From NCBI RefSeq assembly GCF_013376415.1, contig NZ_WYET01000004.1, positions 558,001-622,000 of the forward strand: DNA of 64,000 nucleotides. The letters are read 5' to 3'. The translations under genes were made by a program, and so were the position numbers. How positions within the stretch are numbered: position 1 is the stretch's first letter; each line of letters opens with the position of its first letter. The notes beneath the pieces are model-generated. The model ran no database searches, was not told the origin of the DNA, and saw only the letters and a list, made by a program, of their open reading frames with translations. Of this stretch, positions 36,138 through 60,079 are shown piece after piece. Origin of the DNA: Flagellimonas chongwuensis. Lineage in GTDB: Bacteria > Bacteroidota > Bacteroidia > Flavobacteriales > Flavobacteriaceae.

Positions 36138-37328
36138 ATGAACCCTTCCGCCTCTGGCTGGATCAACAAGTTTGGTCACCTAGTAGCTCAAGAGTCTTCC
36201 CGTTTTGAAGACTTTGACAGTTTGTACAGAGAACTCAAAACAAATGGTTTCATTTACGGCGTCCATTTAAGCATTCCATCATTTATAGAAGTGGAACACA
36301 CCCTGAGCGAGGACGAGATTGCCAAGATCAATCTGCTGACCGCTTTATACTACACCTATACATTTGAGGTTGGAAAGACCGATTTCGAGGCCTTCGTAAA
36401 CAAAGTATTCGAATATTATCAATCTTTGAATGTGAGCAAGATTTCGTTTTTGAGCAAGATATTGAGCGGTTCAAAAACAATTTCCCAACTGGAAAAGTTG
36501 ATTGATTCTCGAATCTATTTAAGCGACAATACTTTTAGCAGGGCACTCGGAAATAGTTTGACCAATTCGTTACTCTATGTAGATATTCTCATCTTCATAA
36601 TTTATCTCCGAAGCGATAAAGACATGATGAGCCATGCACAACTTTTGGAGTATGTCACCATTAATATTGTGTACCATGCACTCAACTCCAAAGAAACACA
36701 TGAATCGGATGCCAAATTAATTCAATTGTTGGGATCCTCTTTGACCTATGTTGATCTGGACAATGCAAAATTTGATGGTGAATATGCCGATTTATTGAAC
36801 CAAAAATTCACCAAAAACGAGAAGGATTATTTCTTGGATATGGCCTGCTTGACTATATGGGAAGACAAGCTGTTGGACTACTCCGAAACAGACTATATTT
36901 TCGGTCTTGGAAAGGACCTTGGAAAGTCGAAAAAAGAGGTGGAATTTGAGCTGGAATTTGTCAAAAATTTCTTTGAGGAAAACAAGGATAAAATTGCCTA
37001 CTTGGACAACAAAAATCTGGCCGTTCAATTCTATGATGGAATGTCCAAAAACGTGAGCAAATTAATTCTAAGAAACAGCAAAAGATTAAAAAAAGAGTTG
37101 ACCGAAAGTAGGGAATTGGTCGGGCTCTTGTCCAAGTCGACGGTTAAGGATTTGAGTGACGAAGAGAAGAAAAAAGTACAAAATCAATTGCTCGATATTT
37201 TTAAAAGCATTCCTTCCTTGGCCATTTTTATGTTGCCTGGAGGAGCGATTCTTCTACCTATTTTTATTAAATTGATTCCTAAACTTCTCCCATCCGCCTT
37301 TGACGACAACCGAGTGGAAGAAAAGTAG
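36138..37328 (+). CDS. LETM1-related protein
   Basis: A 396-residue protein whose C-terminus (about 320-390) resembles the LETM1 ribosome-binding-like region: LSKSTVKDLSDEEKKKVQNQ, then the hydrophobic SLAIFMLPGGAILLPIFIKL. The rest is helical and without known motifs. Flavobacterial proteins of this kind are annotated as LETM1-related and biofilm-associated; the mitochondrial LETM1 is a cation exchanger or ribosome-linked factor. The single hydrophobic stretch suggests membrane attachment. It stands alone, followed by an AT-rich bidirectional terminator. Function unassigned. Confidence 0.75.
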   Translation: MNPSASGWINKFGHLVAQESSRFEDFDSLYRELKTNGFIYGVHLSIPSFIEVEHTLSEDEIAKINLLTALYYTYTFEVGKTDFEAFVNKVFEYYQSLNVSKISFLSKILSGSKTISQLEKLIDSRIYLSDNTFSRALGNSLTNSLLYVDILIFIIYLRSDKDMMSHAQLLEYVTINIVYHALNSKETHESDAKLIQLLGSSLTYVDLDNAKFDGEYADLLNQKFTKNEKDYFLDMACLTIWEDKLLDYSETDYIFGLGKDLGKSKKEVEFELEFVKNFFEENKDKIAYLDNKNLAVQFYDGMSKNVSKLILRNSKRLKKELTESRELVGLLSKSTVKDLSDEEKKKVQNQLLDIFKSIPSLAIFMLPGGAILLPIFIKLIPKLLPSAFDDNRVEEK

Positions 37329-38337: not shown

Positions 38338-38673
38338 TTATTTATATTTATCCACCTTACCCCTATCCTCATCCATGTATTTTTGAATCTGCCGTTCTTC
38401 CCATTTTTTAAAGAACGTTAATTTATGCCTTTGCAGAATCAAGGTATGTACGACCAAGATCACGGCCCAAATCAAGATGTTTGCATTGATCCAATCGTAG
38501 TAATAAGATTCTTTAGGAAACGTTTCTGGCAACAACGAGTTTAATACTCCGGTCTTAAGTAGGTATAAGAAACCGTTAACAACAATAAAGATGAAAATGT
38601 GTCTATAGTATCCTTTGAGCTCCTTGACCCGCTTTTCGGCGTTCTCCCTAACTGTATGCTTGTCAACCATCAT
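38338..38673 (-). CDS. 2TM domain protein (1 of 4 stand-alone)
   Basis: A 111-residue protein: charged N-terminal helix (ENAEKRVKELKGYYRHI), two transmembrane helices (IFIFIVVNGFLYLLKTGVL and ILIWAVILVVHTLILQ) and a C-terminal charged motif KWEERQIQKYMDED. This is the 2TM domain (PF13239-type), otherwise found at the end of LytS kinases such as the one at 39886. It is the most divergent of the four: the NPxxGK segment before WEER is replaced by HKLTFFKK. Two bases separate it from the preceding 2TM gene, so it belongs to the same operon. Confidence 0.82.
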   Translation of the reverse strand: MMVDKHTVRENAEKRVKELKGYYRHIFIFIVVNGFLYLLKTGVLNSLLPETFPKESYYYDWINANILIWAVILVVHTLILQRHKLTFFKKWEERQIQKYMDEDRGKVDKYK

Positions 38674-38675
38674 CC

Positions 38676-38993
38676 CTATTTATATTTGTTCATTTCTTCT
38701 TTGTCCTCGTCCATGTACTTTTGGATTTGGCGCTCTTCCCAGTCTTTACCCAACAATGGGTTGAAACCAAAGGTTTTTGATGCATGGAAGAGAACTCCCA
38801 CTCCCCAGGCAATCAAAGTAAAGAAATGCTCCCATCTCCAAAAGTCGTCGCTCCTTATGTACAGGTTCACCAAAATAAAGGCATTTATTACCATATAAAT
38901 GGCCAAATGGATATAAAAGCCCTTGAGTTCATCCACTCGCTTTTTGGCTCTGTTGTACTTTTCTTTGTTGATGTTTTCCATGACTATTTCCAT
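38676..38993 (-). CDS. 2TM domain protein (2 of 4 stand-alone)
   Basis: A 105-residue 2TM protein: RAKKRVDELKGFYIHLAIYM begins the first helix, a second helix follows (WEHFFTLIAWGVGVLFHA), then FGFNPLLGKDWEERQIQKYM, the family's C-terminal signature. Its ATG region overlaps the end of the upstream 2TM gene by ten bases, and only two bases separate it from the next, which shows a tightly coupled operon. No catalytic residues; a membrane-bound regulatory or structural role is assumed. Confidence 0.83.
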   Translation of the reverse strand: MEIVMENINKEKYNRAKKRVDELKGFYIHLAIYMVINAFILVNLYIRSDDFWRWEHFFTLIAWGVGVLFHASKTFGFNPLLGKDWEERQIQKYMDEDKEEMNKYK

Positions 38994-39286
38994 TTATTGT
39001 TCTGTTCATCTTCACGCATAAACTCTTCTAACTTGCGTTTTTCCCATTGCTTACCAAAAAAGGGATTAAGGTCAAATGTTTTAATCGCATGAAAAACAAT
39101 TCCGATTCCCCAACCAAAAGCGGCCCACAAGAACCACATATAGCCAAAGCCCGTAGTATAGTAATTTAGAATTGCCAATCCGGCTATTACAAACACATAG
39201 GAAGTTACATTCCCATAAAACTTTTTGAGCTCCTGAACACGCTCACGTGCCCTTACATATTTGTTTTCTTTATCTATAGTTTCCAT
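38984..39286 (-). CDS. 2TM domain protein (3 of 4 stand-alone)
   Basis: The start ATG at 39286 gives 100 residues beginning METIDKENKYVRARERVQEL; the frame can be extended 14 codons upstream but without similarity to its paralogues. Architecture is as for the others: amphipathic RARERVQELKKFYGNV, two helices (VTSYVFVIAGLAILNYY, MWFLWAAFGWGIGIVFHA) and FDLNPFFGKQWEKRKLEEFM. The signature WEER is WEKR here. The gene overlaps the next 2TM gene by ten bases. Confidence 0.82.
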   Translation of the reverse strand: METIDKENKYVRARERVQELKKFYGNVTSYVFVIAGLAILNYYTTGFGYMWFLWAAFGWGIGIVFHAIKTFDLNPFFGKQWEKRKLEEFMREDEQNNKWK

Positions 39287-39330
39287 GGTATTGTTGTTTG
39301 ATGTGATGTTGTAGCTAAAAATACTCATTC

Positions 39331-39609
39331 TTAAAATTCTTTATCGTTCATAAATTCCTGAATCTTACGTTCTTCCCAATCTTTACCAAAAATGGGATTG
39401 TGTCCATAAGCGGTCATCCAAAGACTGAACAAACCAAATCCCCATCCAACGGCGGGAAAAATGGCCCAAGGAATATCTGTGGTCCTATGATTGATGTAGA
39501 TCAAAACCGGAATTACCACGCAATAAGCAATTAAGCTTTGATAAAAAGATTTTAGGTTCTCTACCCTTTCTTTTGCTCTGGTGTAGCGATGTTCGTTTAC
39601 ATTTTTCAT
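39331..39609 (-). CDS. 2TM domain protein (4 of 4 stand-alone)
   Basis: A 92-residue 2TM protein, closest in sequence to the 2TM domain of the kinase at 39886: both have YARAKERV-like starts (here YTRAKERVENLKSFYQSL), an LIAYCVVIPVL helix, FPAVGWGFGLF and YGHNPIFGKDWEERKIQEFM. It therefore probably arose from the kinase's tail, or the reverse. It is the first stand-alone 2TM gene in transcription order, 276 bases after the kinase gene. Confidence 0.84.
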   Translation of the reverse strand: MKNVNEHRYTRAKERVENLKSFYQSLIAYCVVIPVLIYINHRTTDIPWAIFPAVGWGFGLFSLWMTAYGHNPIFGKDWEERKIQEFMNDKEF

Positions 39610-39885
39610 GACTGTTCGGTTTTACTAATTGATTACAGGTCAAATATCAGAATAGCCTGGGGCAAAAAGAAAAGTGAGTTCCCGAACTGTAATTTTAATG
39701 GGATGAGTTGTAGTTGCAGGGGTTACAGGTTATAGGTTACGGGGTTACGTGAGGGTTGAGGGTTGAGGGTTGAGGGAAGTTCGTGAAATTTTCGTGATTG
39801 CAACCCATATGCTGAGTTCATTTGACCCACACAATTCGAAGACGGAAATTAGAGTTCTGAAATCTGACAACTGAAATATGAATTC
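39610..39885. other. Intergenic region with GGGTTGA repeats
   Basis: No gene is seen in these 276 bases between the kinase and 2TM genes. Bases 39751-39776 hold 3.7 copies of the heptamer GAGGGTT, so four GGG runs are spaced by TTGA on the plus strand, a possible G-quadruplex. Simple repeats of GGTTAC (39721-39747) precede it, and CTGAAATCTGA-type sequence lies at 39857-39880. Confidence 0.55.
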
Positions 39886-41214
39886 CTAGAAATCGTCCTT
39901 CTCCATTAACTCCTTGATCTTGCGCTCCTCCCAACGTTTCCCCCATAATGGATTATAGCCAAAAGCCGCCATACCGTGAGCCGTAAGTCCAAATCCCCAA
40001 CCCAACGTAGGGAAAAAGGCCCATAAAAATTCAGTAGTACGAAAATTGAGCCACCATAAAAAGGGAATCACGATACAATAGGCCATAAGATTGCCGTAGA
40101 AGTCCTTAATATTCTTGACCCGCTCCTTGGCGTTGGCATAGCGTTTCTCTTCAATATAGCTCTCCTGTGTCTCTAGAACCGTATATTTTTGGGTGAGCAT
40201 GGGTATAAAAACCATGAAATCACTTTCCGTTTTCTCAATGATTACTTCACGTTCCGTGAGGATATTGTACCGTTGTTTTATGTTTTGGAGCCCTACCCCG
40301 CTGCTCTTTTTAACCACCTGTTTTTCTTGGAGGTTGTTGCTTACCACCAACATGCCATTCTGTTCAAATACTTTGATATGCAATGGCCGGGAAGAGGTAA
40401 CCACATTGTGCTTTACTGCGTTTTCCAACAAAAGCTGTAATGACAGGGGCACTATTTTTGCTTCAGGCTTGGAGGAATTATCCGGGATATCGAAAATAAT
40501 ACTGTCTTCAAAACGCATCTTAAGAAGTCTAACATAGGTTCGGGCAAACTTCAACTCATCATCAACCGTAACCAAGTCCTTGTTTTTCTGTTCCAGTACA
40601 TATCGATATACTTTGGAAAGCGATGTGGTGAAGTTTTGTGCCTGGTGTGGGTCTTCATCTATCAAACTGGTCAACACATTAAGGCTATTGAACAGAAAGT
40701 GGGGATCCAACTGATTTTTCAATGCATCGAAACGCGCCGATGCCGACCCGGCAATTATCTTTTGCTCCTTTACCTGTTTTTCCTTGTAGTATTTGTAGTA
40801 GTAGGCAGCATAGAACATCAATGCCACCGCCATAGAAATGATAAAGGAGCTTACATAGAATTCAGAACGTTCCTCAGCAAAAAACTGGTTTATGGATTTA
40901 TCATATACCAGAACCATTAATACAAATCTGGAAACAATGATTCCAAGTATGGAAGCTATAATATTCCCTAGAATGCCATAACCAACATACTTTTTGGTAA
41001 AGAGCTCCTTATCGTACTTGCGCATTAAAAAGATAAAGGAGGCCGCATTGAACATGTAGATTATAACGGAAAAAATCATATTCTCCCAAAACTCCTCCCA
41101 CAGTTGCTGATACGTAAGTTCCCATCCCTTGATAAAGAAAATAATGAGGAAAACTATAAAAATAGCTATCCCCACTAAAAATGCTTTTACAAGTTCTTTT
41201 ATAAAGAGTTTCAT
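39886..41214 (-). CDS. LytS-type sensor histidine kinase with C-terminal 2TM domain
   Basis: A 442-residue membrane kinase. Four hydrophobic segments occupy about residues 8-140. The His_kinase domain has the phosphoacceptor His172 in NQLDPHFLFNSLNVL and the N-box LLLENAVKHN (262-270); SSGVGLQNIKQRY (304-316) is the G-box. After the catalytic part a 2TM domain follows (355-442): RYANAKERVKNIKDFYGNL, two helices and GYNPLWGKRWEERKIKELM. The LytTR regulator at 37418 is the likely partner. A TPR gene lies six bases upstream. The 2TM tail may sense the membrane state or bind the four small 2TM proteins (inference). Confidence 0.9.
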   Translation of the reverse strand: MKLFIKELVKAFLVGIAIFIVFLIIFFIKGWELTYQQLWEEFWENMIFSVIIYMFNAASFIFLMRKYDKELFTKKYVGYGILGNIIASILGIIVSRFVLMVLVYDKSINQFFAEERSEFYVSSFIISMAVALMFYAAYYYKYYKEKQVKEQKIIAGSASARFDALKNQLDPHFLFNSLNVLTSLIDEDPHQAQNFTTSLSKVYRYVLEQKNKDLVTVDDELKFARTYVRLLKMRFEDSIIFDIPDNSSKPEAKIVPLSLQLLLENAVKHNVVTSSRPLHIKVFEQNGMLVVSNNLQEKQVVKKSSGVGLQNIKQRYNILTEREVIIEKTESDFMVFIPMLTQKYTVLETQESYIEEKRYANAKERVKNIKDFYGNLMAYCIVIPFLWWLNFRTTEFLWAFFPTLGWGFGLTAHGMAAFGYNPLWGKRWEERKIKELMEKDDF

Positions 41215-41220
41215 GTTTTT

Positions 41221-41844
41221 CTATTTACCGCAACTTTTCAACACCTCTTCCGCCCTTTCCTTCCCCCAGGCAGGGTAAAACGGAGTTTCGGATTTAAAGG
41301 TAGCAAAAAGTTCCAAGGCCCTTTCCACATCTTTGCAATAGGGAGTAATGTCCTTTCCAAAATAACGGGCCGACCCCATGTCCCATTCCGCTTTGGAAAG
41401 TACTACCCTTGGATTGTCGGGCGCTATTTCCAATGCTTTTTGATACAATTGTACGTTTTTAGGAGAAAGTGTCATTCCATACGTGGCACCATCAAAAGCG
41501 ATCCATGCCGTATTGATCAGGGCTTCCTGAATCAAAATTTCTGGATTGTCCGGAGAAATAGCCTTGGCCACATCCAAAAACTCTTTGGCTTTTTCCAATT
41601 GTTTGCTCAATTTTTCCTCATCCTTCTCCCCAAAAGAAATTACTGTATTAATCTGTGATACGTAGTAATAAGGCAACCATTTATCTGGTTCTGCAGTGGC
41701 AATACGCTCAAAAAGGTTGGATGCCTCTGTTGTTTTTTGGCTCTGCCATAATTCAAAGGCCTTTTCCATTCCGCTGGAATAGCGATCCTGTGCGTTCACA
41801 AATGTTGACCCTATAAGTATGATTACTAAAATAATTTTTTTCAT
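41221..41844 (-). CDS. Exported TPR-like protein
   Basis: A 207-residue exported protein with signal peptide (IILVIILIGSTFVNAQ). It has TPR-like helices: MEKAFELWQSQKTTEASNLF, KAKEFLDVAKAISPDNPEIL and LYQKALEIAPDNPRVVLSK. It stands first in the kinase/2TM cluster, six bases before the kinase gene, so both are probably co-transcribed. A periplasmic sensor partner for the kinase is possible. Its leader is shared in part with that of the TonB receptor gene at 45750 (see findings). Confidence 0.8.
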   Translation of the reverse strand: MKKIILVIILIGSTFVNAQDRYSSGMEKAFELWQSQKTTEASNLFERIATAEPDKWLPYYYVSQINTVISFGEKDEEKLSKQLEKAKEFLDVAKAISPDNPEILIQEALINTAWIAFDGATYGMTLSPKNVQLYQKALEIAPDNPRVVLSKAEWDMGSARYFGKDITPYCKDVERALELFATFKSETPFYPAWGKERAEEVLKSCGK

Positions 41845-41998
41845 GACTGTTGTTTTTGATTATTGATGCCACAAAGATGTTCTGAACAGAACTTTTTTTA
41901 AAAGAAGGTTTACCCAACTGTGAACATTCGGGGATGAACCGTAGTCCATCGCAACTTAATTTATATTTTAGCTTTCCATTTAAAATTTAAGCACGCCC

Positions 41999-45749: not shown

Positions 45750-47912
45750 CTATAGATTATCCAGCTGATTACTTTTACCATCGGTACTTATCGTCCAGAA
45801 GAAACCTACGAAGAAAAAGCTGTCCGCTGGAGGGGTTATGGCCCTTCTATTATAAACCCCTCCCACATCTGGAGTATTGGCATACTGATAATTGCTCACG
45901 TTATTTAGGCTCAACAGATTGCTTACGGAGAAGTATAGGATTTTTTGTTGGTCGATAAGATAGGCCCAGTTAAAGCTCAAGTTATTGTACGATTTGGTTT
46001 TCTCTTGCATAAAACCAGGGTTGTTGGGATTGTGATAAGGCCTTCCCGAACCGTAAGAATATGACAACCCCACTTGCGAGCGCAACTTGTCCACCCAATA
46101 TTTGGTTACGAGCGAAGCATTGTGCTTTGGTGCAAAGTTGGGAGTGGCCCGTTCAGGAAAATTTTGGTAGTCTCGCTCGGTATCCAAATAAGAATAGGAA
46201 AACCAGTAGTCCAGGTTTTCAATGCTCTTGCTATCTCTCCAAAATACATCAACACCTTGGGCATATCCGTCCCCTGAATTGCTATATGCGGAATCAAACT
46301 GTGGCATCTCAGAATCATATTTTACCAATTGGCCATACGCCTTATGGTAGACCTCTGTTCTAAATGTTTTTCCATTGTTTATGTATTGATAATTTAAGAT
46401 GTAGTGAGAAGCTTTCTCCATGGACAGGCTTTCATCAAACTTGAGAACATCTGAAAGCGGTCTTTGGTAAAAATCACCGTAGGCTAAAGAAAACTGGCCG
46501 CTCTCTCCCGGTTTGTATGCCAGCGATAGTCTTGGGGACAGTTTAAACTCATCCAATAAGCTACTGTGTGCGCCTCTAACACCCAGTTTCATGGCAAACT
46601 TATTGCTCAAATAGATATCGGATTCAGCAAAACCGGCCCAAAGTCCGTCAGTATAATTATTGTCAAATTCATCAATATTTACATCGGTGTAAGTTTCATC
46701 ATAATTGGTATGGAAATATTCCGTTCCAAAACTCAAATCGTATCGGTTGCTAAAGTTTTTACGGGCCTTTACCTTAAGGTGCGAAGAGGTTTCCTTATTG
46801 TCCACCTTGTCGTCTTCTATCCCAATTTTATTGGTGTCCCATGCAATGGAAGCGCCTGATGTTAGGCTCCAGTCATTCTCAAAATAGTACTTATAGGATG
46901 AATTAAAGTATAGGTTGTTATTTTTCAGGCCAAAGCGCACAAAGTCATCAAAATTGATGTCCTCCTGTTCAATATCTAAATTGGAATGGTTGAAACCCGT
47001 GTATAATTTGAACATGCTCTTTTCTCCTTTGCTCCTAAAAACGGCTTCACCGGAAATAGATTCATACGGACTTTTCCAACGGACGCCCTGAGTAGACGGA
47101 ATCAAGGCTTCATAAGGTGCAAGGTTCATATAGGAGGTGTTGATGCTCAACGATTGGTCGCCCCAAATCTTGGTATGCCCGAGGCCACCACCAACGCTCA
47201 TTATGGAGATTTCCGTTTGCTCTTGCAAGGGAACGTCCGTAGTATTTAGCAATAATACACTAGAAAGGGCCTGACCGTACTCAGCAGAATATCCTCCGGT
47301 ACTGAAAGAAATACCTTTGAACAAGAAAGGGGAGAATCTACCTCGTGTTGGCATATTGTTCGCTGTGGCATTGAATGGTTGAAAAACCCGAAGTCCATCT
47401 ATAAAGACCTGTGTTTCGCCCGCTGTGCCTCCCCTTACAAACAATCTACCATCTTCATTAACCGTGGTAGTTCCCGGGAGGGTCTGTAACGCGGCCACAA
47501 AATCACCAGTAGCGCCCGCAGTGGTCACAATATCGAGTGGTTTCAATACGGATGCCTTGGAATTGTTACCGGCTTCAAATGTACCGGCGGTCAAGGTAAC
47601 TCCCGTTAATGAGTTAACGGATTCCATCAATTTTATGTGCAGATTTTGAAAATAGGACACATCACCGGCCTCATAATGAGGTTCATAAGATAACATGGAA
47701 ACAATGAGTATTTGAGTACCCTCCTCCGTGGTCTCAAAACTAAAATTCCCGTCCTTGTCCGAGGAAGCTCCATCATAGGTGCCCTCCAGATAAATGTTGG
47801 CCCCTTCTATGGGGTTGTTTTTGGTATCGGTAATTTTTCCTGAAATGGTCTGCTGGCCAAAAACAGCTCCAGCACAAAATAATAAAATAACAAGTTTGAT
47901 AAAGGTTTTCAT
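45750..47912 (-). CDS. TonB-dependent outer-membrane receptor with CarboxypepD-reg-like domain
   Basis: From ATG 47912 a 720-residue receptor with signal peptide (FIKLVILLFCAGAVFGQ). A carboxypeptidase-regulatory-like domain (ISGKITDTKNNPIEGANIYL) is at about 20-105. The plug follows: LKPLDIVTTAGATGDFVAAL, LPGTTTVNEDGRLFVRGG and FIDGLRV. The barrel covers the rest, up to FFVGFFWTIS near the end. No SusD partner is adjacent, so it probably imports iron chelates or another ligand rather than forming a Sus pair. The frame extends back to 47951, but the signal peptide start is clear. The upstream promoter region is tandemly duplicated. Confidence 0.92.
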   Translation of the reverse strand: MKTFIKLVILLFCAGAVFGQQTISGKITDTKNNPIEGANIYLEGTYDGASSDKDGNFSFETTEEGTQILIVSMLSYEPHYEAGDVSYFQNLHIKLMESVNSLTGVTLTAGTFEAGNNSKASVLKPLDIVTTAGATGDFVAALQTLPGTTTVNEDGRLFVRGGTAGETQVFIDGLRVFQPFNATANNMPTRGRFSPFLFKGISFSTGGYSAEYGQALSSVLLLNTTDVPLQEQTEISIMSVGGGLGHTKIWGDQSLSINTSYMNLAPYEALIPSTQGVRWKSPYESISGEAVFRSKGEKSMFKLYTGFNHSNLDIEQEDINFDDFVRFGLKNNNLYFNSSYKYYFENDWSLTSGASIAWDTNKIGIEDDKVDNKETSSHLKVKARKNFSNRYDLSFGTEYFHTNYDETYTDVNIDEFDNNYTDGLWAGFAESDIYLSNKFAMKLGVRGAHSSLLDEFKLSPRLSLAYKPGESGQFSLAYGDFYQRPLSDVLKFDESLSMEKASHYILNYQYINNGKTFRTEVYHKAYGQLVKYDSEMPQFDSAYSNSGDGYAQGVDVFWRDSKSIENLDYWFSYSYLDTERDYQNFPERATPNFAPKHNASLVTKYWVDKLRSQVGLSYSYGSGRPYHNPNNPGFMQEKTKSYNNLSFNWAYLIDQQKILYFSVSNLLSLNNVSNYQYANTPDVGGVYNRRAITPPADSFFFVGFFWTISTDGKSNQLDNL

Positions 47913-47936: not shown

Positions 47937-47969
47937 CAAAATTGCTTTCACTCAGGTTCTTAAACCAAA
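47937..47969 (-). promoter_or_regulatory. Putative promoter of TonB receptor gene
   Basis: On the minus strand TTTG (47966-47969) is followed after 21 bases by CAATTTTG (47937-47944), one mismatch from TANNTTTG. Transcription would start about 20 bases before the ATG at 47912. The TTTG lies in the gene-proximal copy of the 62-bp repeat, while the -7-like box lies outside it. Confidence 0.5.
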
Positions 47970-48073
47970 AGGAAGTGCTCAATTGTAGATTTTTACCTCC
48001 GAATTGATTTCACTCAGGTTCTTAAACCAAAAGGAAGTGCTCAATTGTAGATTTTTACCTCCGAATTGATTTC
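47946..48073. repeat. 62-bp tandem duplication upstream of TonB receptor gene
   Basis: Bases 47946-48007 and 48008-48069 are identical, and the next four bases continue the repeat, so the period of 62 holds without error over 128 bases. Each unit contains the partial palindrome GGTTCTTAAACC. It lies between the divergent TonB receptor and DUF2141 genes. Complete identity indicates recent duplication. Confidence 0.95.
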
Positions 48074-48186
48074 CTGATTATCGATTGCAGTTCACTCCAA
48101 AAAATCGACATTTCGGTAGGTTGAAATTTTTTAAGAGTCACTTCTTTTGAAACTTTGGAGTATACAAAACATCAAAAACAACCATT

Positions 48187-48606
48187 ATGAAAACTGTAAC
48201 ACTAGCATTAAGTCTATTTTTAGTAAGCATCGTTGGCCTGGCACAAGAAAAAACCGGCGTGGACATTACCATCACTATCGATAATATCACTAACAACGAA
48301 GGCAAGGTACTCGCGGGGCTACACACCGAAGACACTTTTATGAAAGGACCCGGAGTACAAAATTTACAAAGTGAGATTAAAGAGGGGAAAGTCATTCTAA
48401 CATTTGCCAACGTAGCACCGGGCAACTACGCCATTTTGGCCCTACACGATGCCAATGACAACAACCGAATGGATTATCAATCCAATGGAATGCCCAAAGA
48501 AAGCTATGGCATGTCCGGTAATGATATGACCATGGGACCACCTAGCTTCAATAGTGCCAAGTTTACCGTTGGCGAGGAAGATATGGCGTTTACCATTCGA
48601 TTCTAA
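48187..48606 (+). CDS. DUF2141 domain protein (exported)
   Basis: A 139-residue exported protein (signal LALSLFLVSIVGLAQ). It matches the DUF2141 family: DITITIDNITNNEGKVLAGL, VILTFANVAPGNYAILALHD, DANDNNRMD and MPKESYGMSGND. The fold is an all-beta, Ig-like sandwich of unknown function; a calcium-like acidic loop (HDANDNNRMD) is visible. Single gene with terminator at 48632-48657; it is divergent from the TonB receptor across the duplicated region. Confidence 0.86.
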   Translation: MKTVTLALSLFLVSIVGLAQEKTGVDITITIDNITNNEGKVLAGLHTEDTFMKGPGVQNLQSEIKEGKVILTFANVAPGNYAILALHDANDNNRMDYQSNGMPKESYGMSGNDMTMGPPSFNSAKFTVGEEDMAFTIRF

Positions 48607-56352: not shown

Positions 56353-56835
56353 ATGGCAACTACAATCACCAAGCACGAACGAAATTTATCCGCGATCATC
56401 CACGCCTCCATGTTCTCGAAGTACTTTATTCCTTTCGGCAATTTTATACTTCCGTTGATCTTATGGACCGCAAACAAAAAAGAGCATGCATTTGTAGATT
56501 ACAACGGCAAACAGGCTCTTAATTTTCAAATTAGTATGTTGCTTTATTCCATCGTGGCAGGTTTGGTCACTATCCCATTCTTTATTGGATTTTGGCCAGA
56601 CTTGTTCGATTGGAACTTTTTGGGGTTCCATGGGTTGAGCGACCTTAACAATTTGAACATTCATATTGATAGCGACGATTTTAGGTTTGGAAGATTGCTC
56701 TGGCCAGTAGGTATCTCTGGATTTCTGCAAGTGGCATTGGCAGTGGTAAACATTGTTTTCTCCATTTTGGCCACCATTAGAACCAACGAGGGAGAATATT
56801 TCAAATATCCGTTCACCATTAAATTCATCAAGTAA
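56353..56835 (+). CDS. DUF4870 domain membrane protein
   Basis: A 160-residue membrane protein from ATG 56353 (MATTITKHERNLSAIIHASM). A longer frame from 56284 is ruled out by the promoter at 56266-56298. DUF4870 hallmarks are HASMFSKYFIPFGNFILPLI, WTANKKEHAFVDYNGKQALN and QISMLLYSIVAG; three or four transmembrane helices. Function unknown; the family often accompanies PspC/PadR genes, as here (57878). Its stop overlaps the start of the DUF4440 gene by one base (TAATG), so the two are translationally linked. Confidence 0.86.
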   Translation: MATTITKHERNLSAIIHASMFSKYFIPFGNFILPLILWTANKKEHAFVDYNGKQALNFQISMLLYSIVAGLVTIPFFIGFWPDLFDWNFLGFHGLSDLNNLNIHIDSDDFRFGRLLWPVGISGFLQVALAVVNIVFSILATIRTNEGEYFKYPFTIKFIK

Positions 56836-57629
56836 TGAAGAGCTTTAAATACATATTTGGAATTTTGACCTTATGCATGGTGGGCTCAGCACAAGCGCAG
56901 GAACCAGAAACATCGGAACTCTACCTATTATTGAAATCCAAGGACAGTTTGTTATTCGATGCGGCTTTTAATAAATGTGATGTGGATACCATGGAGTCGT
57001 TGTTCACAGAGGATTTTGAGTTCTATCATGACAAAGGTGGTTTTACAGAGGGAAGGGAAGCTTTTTTGAAACCGACCAGAGAAAACTGTGAAAAAAGAGA
57101 CACTTCGGCACCACAGTATTCCAAAAGAATATTGATCGATGGTAGTTTGGAAGTGTATCCGCTCAAAAAAGATGGGGAAATCTATGGGGCCGTTCAACAT
57201 GGTGTGCACAGGTTCGAATTTTTAAATGACAAGAACGAATACCAAAAAGGGGATGTTGCAAAATTCACCCATGTTTGGATGCTGATCGATGGATCATGGA
57301 AAATAAAAAGGGAATTGAGCTACAATCATCATTTAATGGAAAATGAAGCTTCAGCACAGGAAATTCCTGTATCGGACAATATATTGGACAAGTACGAAGG
57401 CAACTATAAATCGTTGCAAGCAGGTGAAGTTCAAATTAAAAAGGACAACGGAAAGTTACTGTTGATAACGGAAAAGATGCAGGCAACGCTTTATCCAAAA
57501 ACAGAAAATACCTTCTTTATGAAGGAGAGAGCGGTTGAATTTAAATTTATAGCATCCGGTAATGGAAACATTGAAAAAATGCAGATTATAGAGAACAATG
57601 CCGTTGTGGACGAAGCACAACGAGAATAA
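56835..57629 (+). CDS. Exported DUF4440/SnoaL-like protein
   Basis: A 264-residue exported protein (signal KYIFGILTLCMVGSAQAQ). Residues about 30-160 form an NTF2-like DUF4440 domain (DAAFNKCDVDTMESLFTEDF, FYHDKGGFTEGREAFLKP, FTHVWMLIDGSWKIKRELSY). The second half (about 175-264) is a beta-rich segment resembling the C-terminal domain of exported beta-lactamase-like proteins (LDKYEGNYKSLQAGEVQIKK). The function is unknown. It overlaps DUF4870 by one base. Confidence 0.82.
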   Translation: MKSFKYIFGILTLCMVGSAQAQEPETSELYLLLKSKDSLLFDAAFNKCDVDTMESLFTEDFEFYHDKGGFTEGREAFLKPTRENCEKRDTSAPQYSKRILIDGSLEVYPLKKDGEIYGAVQHGVHRFEFLNDKNEYQKGDVAKFTHVWMLIDGSWKIKRELSYNHHLMENEASAQEIPVSDNILDKYEGNYKSLQAGEVQIKKDNGKLLLITEKMQATLYPKTENTFFMKERAVEFKFIASGNGNIEKMQIIENNAVVDEAQRE

Positions 57630-58216: not shown

Positions 58217-59953
58217 ATGAACAAGACAGTAAATATAAATCTAGCAAATACGCTCTTCCATATAGACGACGATGCGTATAACAAGCTGAGACGGTACCTG
58301 GAATCCATAAAACGCTCCTTTTCGGGTACCAAGGGAAGCGACGAGATCATTGCCGATATCGAGGCCCGTATCGCAGAGCTCTTTCTCGAAAAAATGGAGA
58401 ACGAACGCCAAGTGATCACCCACAAGGAGGTAGATCAAGTAATCGATGTAATGGGACAACCCGAAGATTACATGGTGGACGAGGATATTTTTGAGGATGA
58501 ACCCAAAAAGAGCCACACGGAACCCTCTGCGGGCAGGGCAAAAAAACTGTACAGGGACATCGACCACAAATATATTGGCGGTGTGTGCGCAGGTTTGGAA
58601 CATTATTTGGGCATCGATGCCCTTTGGGTAAGGCTCATATTTATCCTATTGGCCGTATTTACCAGTGGTTTTGGACTCATTGCCTACATCCTACTTTGGA
58701 TCTTGGTGCCCGAGGCCGCCACAACCTCCCAAAAATTGGATATGCGGGGGGAGCCCGTCAACATCAGCAATATAGAACGCAAAGTTAAAGAGGGGTTTGA
58801 TGATGTTGCCGACAAAGTAAAAAGTGTTGACTACGAAAAAGTGGGCAACAAGGTCAAAAGCGGCTCCAAGACCTTTTTTGATACCATTGGGGACATTATC
58901 TTGTTCCTGTTCAAGGTATTCGGTAAGTTCATAGGCATTTTGTTGATCATTATCGGGGCATCTACCCTGGTAGGGTTGTTTTTCGGACTGTTTACCGTAG
59001 GCATGTTCGATGCCGTACATGTACCCGGCATAGATTTTTATGAAATCGTGAACACTTCGGGAGCTCCTGTATGGGTAGTATCCATCTTGTTGTTCTTTGC
59101 CATTGGAATTCCGTTCTTCTTCCTACTCTATTTAGGATTGAAGATATTGGTGAACAACTTAAAATCGATCGGGAACATTGCCAAATTCTCCTTGTTGGGC
59201 CTTTGGTTGATCTCCGTAGGACTGTTGATTGTCTTTGGCATACGGCAGGCCGCTGAATTCTCGTATACGGGAAGCGTAAACGACAGGACAGAACTCGCAT
59301 TGGAAATTCCTTCCGATACCTTGGTCATCACAATGAAAGATGGTCATATGGATTACAACCGAGATGATATTCATTTTGGTAGAATGACCTTTGGTTATGA
59401 CGAAAACGACAACCGTATCTTAATATCTGACGAAGTTGAAATCAAAATAAGAAAATCAGATACCGATTCCATTAGGGTAAATATCAGGAAAGATGCGGAT
59501 GGAAACTCAACACCGGCCGCCAGAGACCGTGCCAGAAACATCGAGTACGCTTACACGGTTGACGGCAATGAAATTGTGTTGGACAAATATTTGACCACGG
59601 AAACATCGAACAAGGCCAGGAATCAAGAGGTAACTGTAACAATTTATGTACCAGAGGACAAGACGGTATATTTTGATGATTCCACAAGCAGATACATTGG
59701 CCGGGGAATTGATAATGACCAAGGTTTTTACAGAAGTGGCATGGCAGGTCAGCACTGGTTGATGGATGGCGATGGGGAATTGCAGTGTTTGGATTGCCCT
59801 GAAGATAACGATGATAACTCTGATGGAAATGGCAAAATCATCATCAATGAAAATGGTATTGATATCAACATTGAGGATGCCGAAGATTCCGTTCAGTTAA
59901 AAATCGATGAAAACGGGGTAAATGTTAAAGCCAAAGAAAAAAGTAACAATTGA
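58217..59953 (+). CDS. PspC domain membrane protein
   Basis: A 578-residue protein. Residues 1-100 are cytoplasmic (TVNINLANTLFHIDDDAYN). The PspC domain follows (KLYRDIDHKYIGGVCAGLEH, YLGIDALWVRLIFILLAVF and WILVPEA; about 115-180). More transmembrane segments come later (about 235-275, 295-320, 335-355). The last 200 residues are a beta-rich extracytoplasmic region ending in an acidic DNDDNSDGN stretch. PspC proteins belong to envelope-stress (phage shock) systems. It is preceded by padR and followed by a GIN-domain gene. Confidence 0.88.
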   Translation: MNKTVNINLANTLFHIDDDAYNKLRRYLESIKRSFSGTKGSDEIIADIEARIAELFLEKMENERQVITHKEVDQVIDVMGQPEDYMVDEDIFEDEPKKSHTEPSAGRAKKLYRDIDHKYIGGVCAGLEHYLGIDALWVRLIFILLAVFTSGFGLIAYILLWILVPEAATTSQKLDMRGEPVNISNIERKVKEGFDDVADKVKSVDYEKVGNKVKSGSKTFFDTIGDIILFLFKVFGKFIGILLIIIGASTLVGLFFGLFTVGMFDAVHVPGIDFYEIVNTSGAPVWVVSILLFFAIGIPFFFLLYLGLKILVNNLKSIGNIAKFSLLGLWLISVGLLIVFGIRQAAEFSYTGSVNDRTELALEIPSDTLVITMKDGHMDYNRDDIHFGRMTFGYDENDNRILISDEVEIKIRKSDTDSIRVNIRKDADGNSTPAARDRARNIEYAYTVDGNEIVLDKYLTTETSNKARNQEVTVTIYVPEDKTVYFDDSTSRYIGRGIDNDQGFYRSGMAGQHWLMDGDGELQCLDCPEDNDDNSDGNGKIIINENGIDINIEDAEDSVQLKIDENGVNVKAKEKSNN

Positions 59954-60079
59954 GTCACTTAATTCGTCAATTCAGTAGATCATTATTTAAAACGCATACA
60001 TAAAAACGGACATTTACACTGAAATTATTTCAGAAGACATTAATCATTTTCAAAATCAATCAATACTAAAACAACAATC

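Follow-up and report, generated by a model that had tools for sequence, protein, structure and literature searches.

Stand-alone copies of a kinase's 2TM tail in a LytS/LytTR two-component cluster of Flagellimonas chongwuensis and their candidate role in feedback

The kinase, the regulator and the small 2TM genes

The window analyzed in this study is a stretch of 64,000 nucleotides from Flagellimonas chongwuensis (contig NZ_WYET01000004.1, positions 558,001 to 622,000), and all positions are counted from its first letter. One stretch of the minus strand, 38338-39609, is filled exactly by four open reading frames, each of which encodes a stand-alone 2TM protein (Table 1). We name these genes s1 to s4 in the order of transcription; s1 is copy 4 and s4 is copy 1 of a first-pass annotation that had been made from the sequence alone. 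Upstream of them lies a LytS-type histidine kinase gene, preceded by the TPR gene that opens its operon, and a LytTR response regulator gene comes directly after s4. The identity of this pair, as claimed in the first-pass annotation, is confirmed by the profile matches, including a His_kinase match (PF06580, E 3.5e-25) and conserved QxDPHFLFNSLN and LLEN..KHN stretches in the kinase, and matches to the receiver (PF00072, E 1.6e-15) and LytTR domains (PF04397, E 4.2e-22) in the regulator. The TPR protein has an apparent signal peptide, as judged by eye. A plasmid origin of the region was considered and rejected, since a plasmid collection gave no match. A gene for a LETM1-related biofilm protein (NCBIfam NF040639) lies at 36138-37328, convergent to the regulator gene and syntenic in many genera.

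Table 1. Genes, domains and predicted promoter sites in the window
Feature	Position	Strand	Profile match or sequence
Response regulator, receiver and LytTR DNA-binding domains, 251 aa	37418..38173	-	PF00072, PF04397
s4, stand-alone 2TM protein, 111 aa, most divergent	38338..38673	-	PF13239 E 2.9e-19
s3, stand-alone 2TM protein, 105 aa, 10 bp overlap with s2	38676..38993	-	PF13239 E 5.5e-27
s2, stand-alone 2TM protein, 114 aa	38984..39328	-	PF13239 E 7.2e-29
s1, stand-alone 2TM protein, 92 aa	39331..39609	-	PF13239 E 8.5e-27
Predicted LytTR-activated promoter of s1-s4	39641..39711	-	ACAACTCAT-12-ACAGTTCGG (39682-39711), TTT element, GATATTTG
LytS-type histidine kinase, 442 aa, four N-terminal hydrophobic stretches, C-terminal 2TM tail	39886..41214	-	PF06580
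Kinase 2TM tail, residues 361-438	39901..40134	-	PF13239 E 5.3e-28
TPR protein, 207 aa, first gene of the kinase operon	41221..41844	-	TPR_19, TPR_14, barely above cut-off
Predicted LytTR-activated promoter of the TPR-kinase operon	41872..41942	-	ACGGTTCAT-12-ACAGTTGGG
TonB-dependent receptor, 720 aa from ATG 47912 (733 aa from GTG 47951)	45750..47912	-	PF00593, PF07715, PF13715
Two tandem predicted LytTR sites before the receptor	47937..48069	-	TCAATTCGG-12-ACAATTGAG
Predicted LytTR site before the DUF2141 gene	48087..48157	+	GCAGTTCAC-12-ACATTTCGG
DUF2141 protein, 139 aa, divergent to the receptor gene	48187..48606	+	PF09912 E 1.6e-30
Weaker predicted LytTR site before the DUF2807 gene	59946..60016	+	ACAATTGAG-12-TCAATTCAG; 3 mismatches, 36.4 bits
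DUF2807 head-GIN (Toastrack-type) protein, 240 aa	60080..60802	+	PF10988 E 1.7e-47

The four small proteins and the C-terminal tail of the kinase carry the same domain. All five match the Pfam profile PF13239 (2TM) with E values from 2.9e-19 to 7.2e-29 and scores of 69-100 bits against a cut-off of 24.8, far beyond chance, and the domain sharing asserted in the first-pass annotation is thereby established. No NCBIfam model scores above its cut-off for any of the five domains, and the 2TM profile has only six matches in the whole genome, of which the sixth lies next to a dihydrofolate reductase-like gene. Two hydrophobic stretches are seen in every small protein, in agreement with the two membrane helices proposed for it, and s1 is indeed the copy nearest to the kinase tail, with 56% identity, followed by s2 (43%), s3 (37%) and s4 (28%). 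The charged WEER-type end is found in the kinase tail, s1, s3 and s4, while s2 ends in WEKR. An amphipathic N-terminal helix had also been proposed, but its hydrophobic moment is only modest (0.34-0.44), the best window in s2 begins upstream of the helix, and in structure models this segment is a continuous helix with the first membrane helix. These AlphaFold models, computed from alignments of 41 kinases and of 54 small proteins, give s2 and the kinase tail the same three-helix layout, in which a long helix runs from the charged segment through TM1 and is followed by a second membrane helix and a C-terminal helix at the WEER region (residues 348-393, 400-418 and 427-439 in the kinase; 15-58, 66-84 and 93-112 in s2). 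The mean pLDDT of s2 is 82.7; the pTM of the kinase model is low, 0.42, and the packing of the tail is not readable from it. A structure comparison found no solved structure that resembles the small 2TM protein, the nearest solved structure to the kinase core is GanS (6swj), and a Foldseek search with the kinase model returned kinases among the matches listed.

Conservation and history of the cluster

The arrangement of a tail-bearing kinase, small 2TM genes and regulator is widespread in flavobacteria. Of 60 genomes drawn evenly across the genera of the family, 53 contain a 2TM match and 44 contain at least two; our genome draws, including this one and one of 30 genomes of the genus, count F. 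chongwuensis itself. Loci were fetched from 40 of the 43 other family genomes with at least two matches, together with 20 loci of the genus and 20 stretches taken mostly from a phylum draw, and genes were labelled from our own open reading frame calls and phmmer searches against the proteins of the window. With the window included, these loci yield 70 clusters with 1-5 small genes each, and the regulator lies just downstream in 68 of them (L019 and L025 are without an adjacent regulator). A further set of 80 named loci represents the best 80 of 577 kinase relatives ranked by likeness to the tail-bearing kinase, and is biased to close kin that have the tail. Within this best 80 of 577, all 80 loci have the fused kinase and 1-6 small 2TM genes, 78 have the regulator (the other two lie on contigs of 7.2 and 5.1 kb), and in 60 the TPR gene was labelled upstream of the kinase; the genera include Allomuricauda, Flagellimonas, Maribacter, Arenibacter, Robiginitalea, Flavobacterium, Winogradskyella and others. 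Thus, at least one small 2TM gene stands beside every fused kinase in 150 of 150 loci (the 70 clusters and the best 80 of 577), which hold 143 distinct kinases and of which the unnamed ones had been selected by their 2TM matches. At least six of the clusters are interrupted by other genes (L040, L042, L051, L080, L082 and L083). Among the matches listed from the phylum draw, kinase-length open frames with a 2TM domain occur only in the same order.

Outside the order, 2TM singletons mostly do not lie beside a kinase. The only such neighbor among the 27 loci listed is L085, from a different family of the same class, where a separate 2TM gene directly precedes a tail-less kinase and a LytTR regulator. 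Where a domain is fused in one lineage and encoded by an adjacent gene in another, this is a classical, if indirect, sign that the parts touch, and this unfused operon, a single example, therefore offers indirect evidence of contact between the tail and a free 2TM protein.

The phylogeny of the 2TM domains that the first-pass annotation had proposed was run on 117 domains, a tree with few columns for its rows, many weak forks and 54 open branches among its 114 inner ones. In this tree, s1 joins the s1 genes of congeners among the kinase tails (support 82-90), s2 and s4 are placed in starred groups that also contain genes from other genera, and s3 belongs to a starred congener group inside a wider set (support 83). 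The first-pass annotation had read the four copies as an expansion by duplication. A recent local expansion is rejected, because s2 and s4, and s3 at support 83, group with other genera, and it is also contradicted by the recurrence of 3-5 copies per locus across the genus (20 loci and the window, 21 in total). A constraint test on 85 rows did not accept the placement of all 22 tails in one clade (p-AU 1e-4, quick tree). This is consistent with several rounds of copying from the tail, and the stand-alone genes appear to derive from kinase tails by more than one event. The lineage of s1 appears to be at least as old as the genus, and the remaining copies seem to be of greater age. No concerted evolution was seen between s1 and the tail of its own kinase, which lies nearer to it than the mean of the congeners in 11 of 21 cases. 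All four small genes are under purifying selection (pN/pS 0.20-0.28 over 14-20 congeners), with median dN/dS values of 0.13 for s1 (20 congeners, finite dS only), 0.08 for s2, 0.05 for s3 and 0.06 for s4 (14 congeners), to be read in view of nearly saturated silent sites (median pS 0.66-0.87), of medians taken over finite values only and of the pairing of copies by position.

Predicted LytTR sites and the genes behind them

When the 21 kinase-s1 gaps of the genus were aligned, a conserved block emerged before s1, and a similar block was found before the TPR-kinase operon. These blocks have the form of a 9-bp direct repeat with a 12-bp spacer (9-12-9), placed at a fixed distance from a Bacteroidetes promoter. 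A half-site pattern composed after inspection of these alignments matches with a period of 21 at 16 or more of 18 positions in 60 of 70 kinase-s1 gaps and in 99 of 148 operon upstream regions, and nine other periods give only 0-3 of the gaps and 1-6 of the upstream regions at the same threshold. Alignment of 138 sites on their repeats alone revealed a TTT nine bases past the second repeat and then an AnnTTTG element, although the sites had been picked by their half-sites only. This element agrees with the flavobacterial -7 box, TAnnTTTG, as given in the available text of one study (PMC9723704). According to the available part of a paper on LytTR regulators in Streptococcus mutans, these bind 9-bp direct repeats that are mostly 12 bp apart and often lie about 10 bp upstream of the promoter (PMC6193735). 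Both the period test and the position of the TTT element thus give the predicted sites a LytTR-type geometry, and binding by the regulator is a prediction from it. Across 143 loci, no site was assigned before the regulator gene itself. At a stricter cut, 34 of the 143 loci have no site near the four anchor genes, and 75 further same-strand and 10 opposite-strand matches lie elsewhere, the same-strand ones mostly before receptor and DUF2141 genes. The part of the kinase-s1 gap at 39711-39850 contains short repeats (CAACCCT, TAACCC) that vary between congeners.

Searching the 3.77-Mb genome with the full 71-bp pattern at up to 3 mismatches gave six matches, all of them in the window, and none in a backward control. 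The repeat pair alone is not specific at this tolerance (12 genome matches against 7 in the control), and with zero mismatches it finds only the two cluster sites. The six full-pattern sites precede s1, the TPR-kinase operon, a TonB-dependent receptor (twice), a DUF2141 gene and a DUF2807 gene; the pattern was built from the cluster and receptor sites and so knew both, but the DUF2807 site, with similar sites in congeners, was new to it. Of the tandem pair before the receptor, the two copies have 1 and 3 mismatches and matrix scores of 33.1 and 17.2 bits, and a good promoter follows the downstream copy only. The doubling of the site at 47937-48069 is a 62-bp tandem duplication. Directly before the DUF2807 gene lies a PspC protein gene with LiaI-LiaF-TM and Toastrack regions (58217-59953), which is without a site of its own and makes a link to the envelope-stress response possible. 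No predicted site was found for a DUF4440-type protein gene at 56835-57629 of the window.

The same association is seen beyond this genome. All 30 genus genomes searched, our own included, have full-pattern matches, with five control matches in total. In the draw of 60 genera, at up to 2 mismatches, sites occur in 44 of the 44 genomes with at least two 2TM matches and in 2 of the 16 with one or none (Fisher p 7e-12; controls zero in all 60 genomes), where the result of 44 of 44 follows in part from the derivation of the pattern from loci of the same genomes, and the low rate elsewhere and the zero controls are the informative parts. Three of these 44 genomes (G003, G015 and G057) have clusters outside the source loci of the pattern, and all three have sites. 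In one of the 2 of 16 (G006), the sites stand before DUF2141 and DUF2807-like genes, and a look at the neighboring genes revealed neither a kinase nor a regulator nor a 2TM gene. When sites in the 143 loci were scored with a matrix, 245 of 248 lay before a 2TM, TPR, kinase, TonB-dependent receptor, DUF2141 or DUF2807 gene, and a site preceded the receptor in 45 of 48 loci with a receptor in view and the DUF2141 gene in 32 of 37; the 136 training sites of the matrix came from these loci too, with those of the window left aside, and the counts of 139 of 143 loci and 245 of 248 sites are therefore descriptive. In 14 further site stretches chosen for inspection by eye, the genes behind the site were of the DUF2807 (5), DUF2141 (3), receptor (1), DUF4440 (2) and other secreted (1) types or were unassigned (2), so that three stretches (L215, L222 and L223) have unassigned or other genes. 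The DUF4440-type cases (L217 and L219, from two genera) are secreted proteins of 165-169 aa that were assigned by eye, on their likeness to the window's protein at 56835-57629.

Taken together, these results make co-regulation of the small-2TM operon, the kinase operon and the envelope genes a well supported prediction from sequence. Neither the sites nor this larger regulon had been noticed in the first-pass annotation. The genome has 14 LytTR matches, and assignment of the sites to the adjacent regulator therefore rests on proximity and co-occurrence. The placement of DUF2807 in the Toastrack group, which the available portions of one study link to envelope stress (PMC11237479), makes an envelope signal plausible.

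A candidate feedback circuit and its alternatives

LytS/LytTR-type two-component systems such as LytSR, BtsSR and AgrCA likewise pair a LytS-type or related kinase with a LytTR response regulator, but we know of none among them with a C-terminal 2TM tail or with regulated stand-alone copies of a kinase domain. To our knowledge, no function has been assigned to PF13239 in Pfam. The closest likeness in regulation is to the LytTR Regulatory Systems HdrRM and BrsRM of S. mutans, for which the available text describes a LytTR regulator, 9-bp repeats mostly 12 bp apart, autoregulation and membrane proteins encoded alongside (PMC6193735). The present locus shares the predicted autoregulatory direct repeats at the operon promoter; however, where those systems have a membrane inhibitor in place of a kinase, it has a complete histidine kinase and a receiver domain, and its membrane proteins are homologous to the kinase tail. 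A Toastrack-type DUF2807 gene and small multi-helix membrane proteins beside a two-component system also recall the Lia/Psp systems as described in the accessible sections of PMC11237479, but the output there is of winged-helix type and here LytTR, and 2TM is not LiaI-LiaF-TM; no LiaF-like inhibitor or PspA is found among the genes behind the window's predicted sites. HigX of Caulobacter resembles our system in its envelope-tied LytTR regulation with a TonB-dependent receptor among the linked genes, but differs in being a membrane-bound LytTR regulator with membrane helices and DNA-binding domain in one protein, and no kinase or 2TM copies are described with it in the portion of the paper available (PMC13384398). 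In Flavobacterium johnsoniae, mutations in a LytTR gene and in a kinase with consecutive locus tags have been reported (PMC10197871, in part); this pair is probably a different system, as 2TM genes lie between kinase and regulator here. We found no mention of the accession PF13239 in the open-access library searched, and in the accessible portions of work on the 2TM domain, on DUF2141 with TonB-dependent receptors and on flavobacterial LytTR regulators no description of this system was found; in the sections available of PMC11237479, 2TM comes up solely alongside band-7 and SHOCT and as one entry among listed membrane domains. Two-component systems, LytTR sites and the 2TM domain are each known, and it is the kinase with detached, co-regulated copies of its tail that is new.

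What do the small proteins do? The starting point, namely the domains, the conserved gene order, the sites with their geometry and the co-occurrence, is shown by sequence analysis. From it we infer binding by this particular regulator, contact between tails and the sign of the feedback. In the mechanism that we propose, the kinase, with its four-helix membrane part, catalytic core and 2TM tail, would signal to the LytTR response regulator, which would bind the paired 9-bp direct repeats and activate the TPR-kinase operon, the small-2TM operon and the nearby envelope genes for the TonB-dependent receptor, DUF2141 and DUF2807. The free 2TM proteins would then meet the kinase tail in the membrane and change the output of the kinase, most likely in a damping, homeostatic direction. 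We give a probability of about 0.55 to this reading as a whole, an autoregulated two-component system in which induced free tail copies associate with the kinase tail and adjust the kinase, probably by damping. Association with the tail is considered most likely because the induced proteins are free versions of it, and we count the grouping of stand-alone copies inside the kinase tails in our trees toward such a physical link. Shared regulation and the unfused L085 operon lend indirect support to the suggestion of the first-pass annotation that the small proteins may assemble with, or titrate, the tail. Damping is preferred because like competitors of an oligomerizing tail are expected to break up active assemblies. 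If this reading is right, bacteria may control a sensor kinase through detached versions of one of its membrane domains, and a feedback circuit and a first role for the 2TM family are suggested. In any case, PF13239 can be placed in a definite and testable context, a conserved two-component system whose binding site is predicted and whose regulon is compact, and the site motif lends itself directly to reporters in the search for the signal to which this envelope system, widespread in flavobacteria, responds. More tentatively, we speculate that the kinase measures its own output, in that free tail copies enter its oligomers and so determine how strongly the circuit responds (gain) or how it is reset, and that lineages tune it by copying the tail out of the kinase into 1-6 decoys; if true, this would be negative feedback in two-component signaling through detached copies of a kinase domain.

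Among the alternatives, the small proteins may themselves be the working output, an envelope-protective membrane module that acts with the TPR protein, while the tail only places the kinase or reads the state of the module and no decoy-like feedback exists. The promoter of the small-2TM genes, which is of the same kind as those of the other envelope genes, would suit such a role, and so would six loci outside the order, from four genera, in which a homologue of the 207-aa TPR protein is encoded close to a 2TM gene and the search for a kinase was negative; these loci speak for an earlier role of 2TM in the envelope, together with the TPR protein. However, the recurrent grouping of stand-alone copies with kinase tails is more easily explained by a partner that they share with the tail, and we regard this alternative as possible but doubtful. 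The presence of at least one small gene beside every fused kinase, 150 of 150 loci including the best 80 of 577, together with the pairing of a tail-less kinase with one 2TM gene in L085, could also mean that the small proteins are positive co-receptors or assembly subunits needed for kinase activity, but a copy number of 1-6 would be odd for a fixed stoichiometric subunit, which makes this explanation unlikely. Least of all do we expect the 2TM domain to be a general membrane anchor or adaptor whose copies are a tandem duplication that makes no functional contact. Such a use of the domain would account for its fusion to dihydrofolate reductase in one locus and for the unlinked singletons, yet it sits poorly with purifying selection on each copy, with an arrangement kept across the sampled genera and with a site common to the operons.

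Two other settings of the domain are recorded here in their own right. The kinase-less 2TM-TPR loci (L201, L202, L206, L207, L208 and L212) come from other families and also carry a membrane protein of about 190-200 aa, two of which were tested and have no Pfam match. The sixth 2TM gene of the genome adjoins its dihydrofolate reductase-like gene (L013:1411-1863), and in a related genus the two occur in one protein, 2TM followed by dihydrofolate reductase (L093:2306-3199), a membrane-tethered enzyme; in many genera, frames of about 310 aa that match the 2TM profile may be the same fusion.
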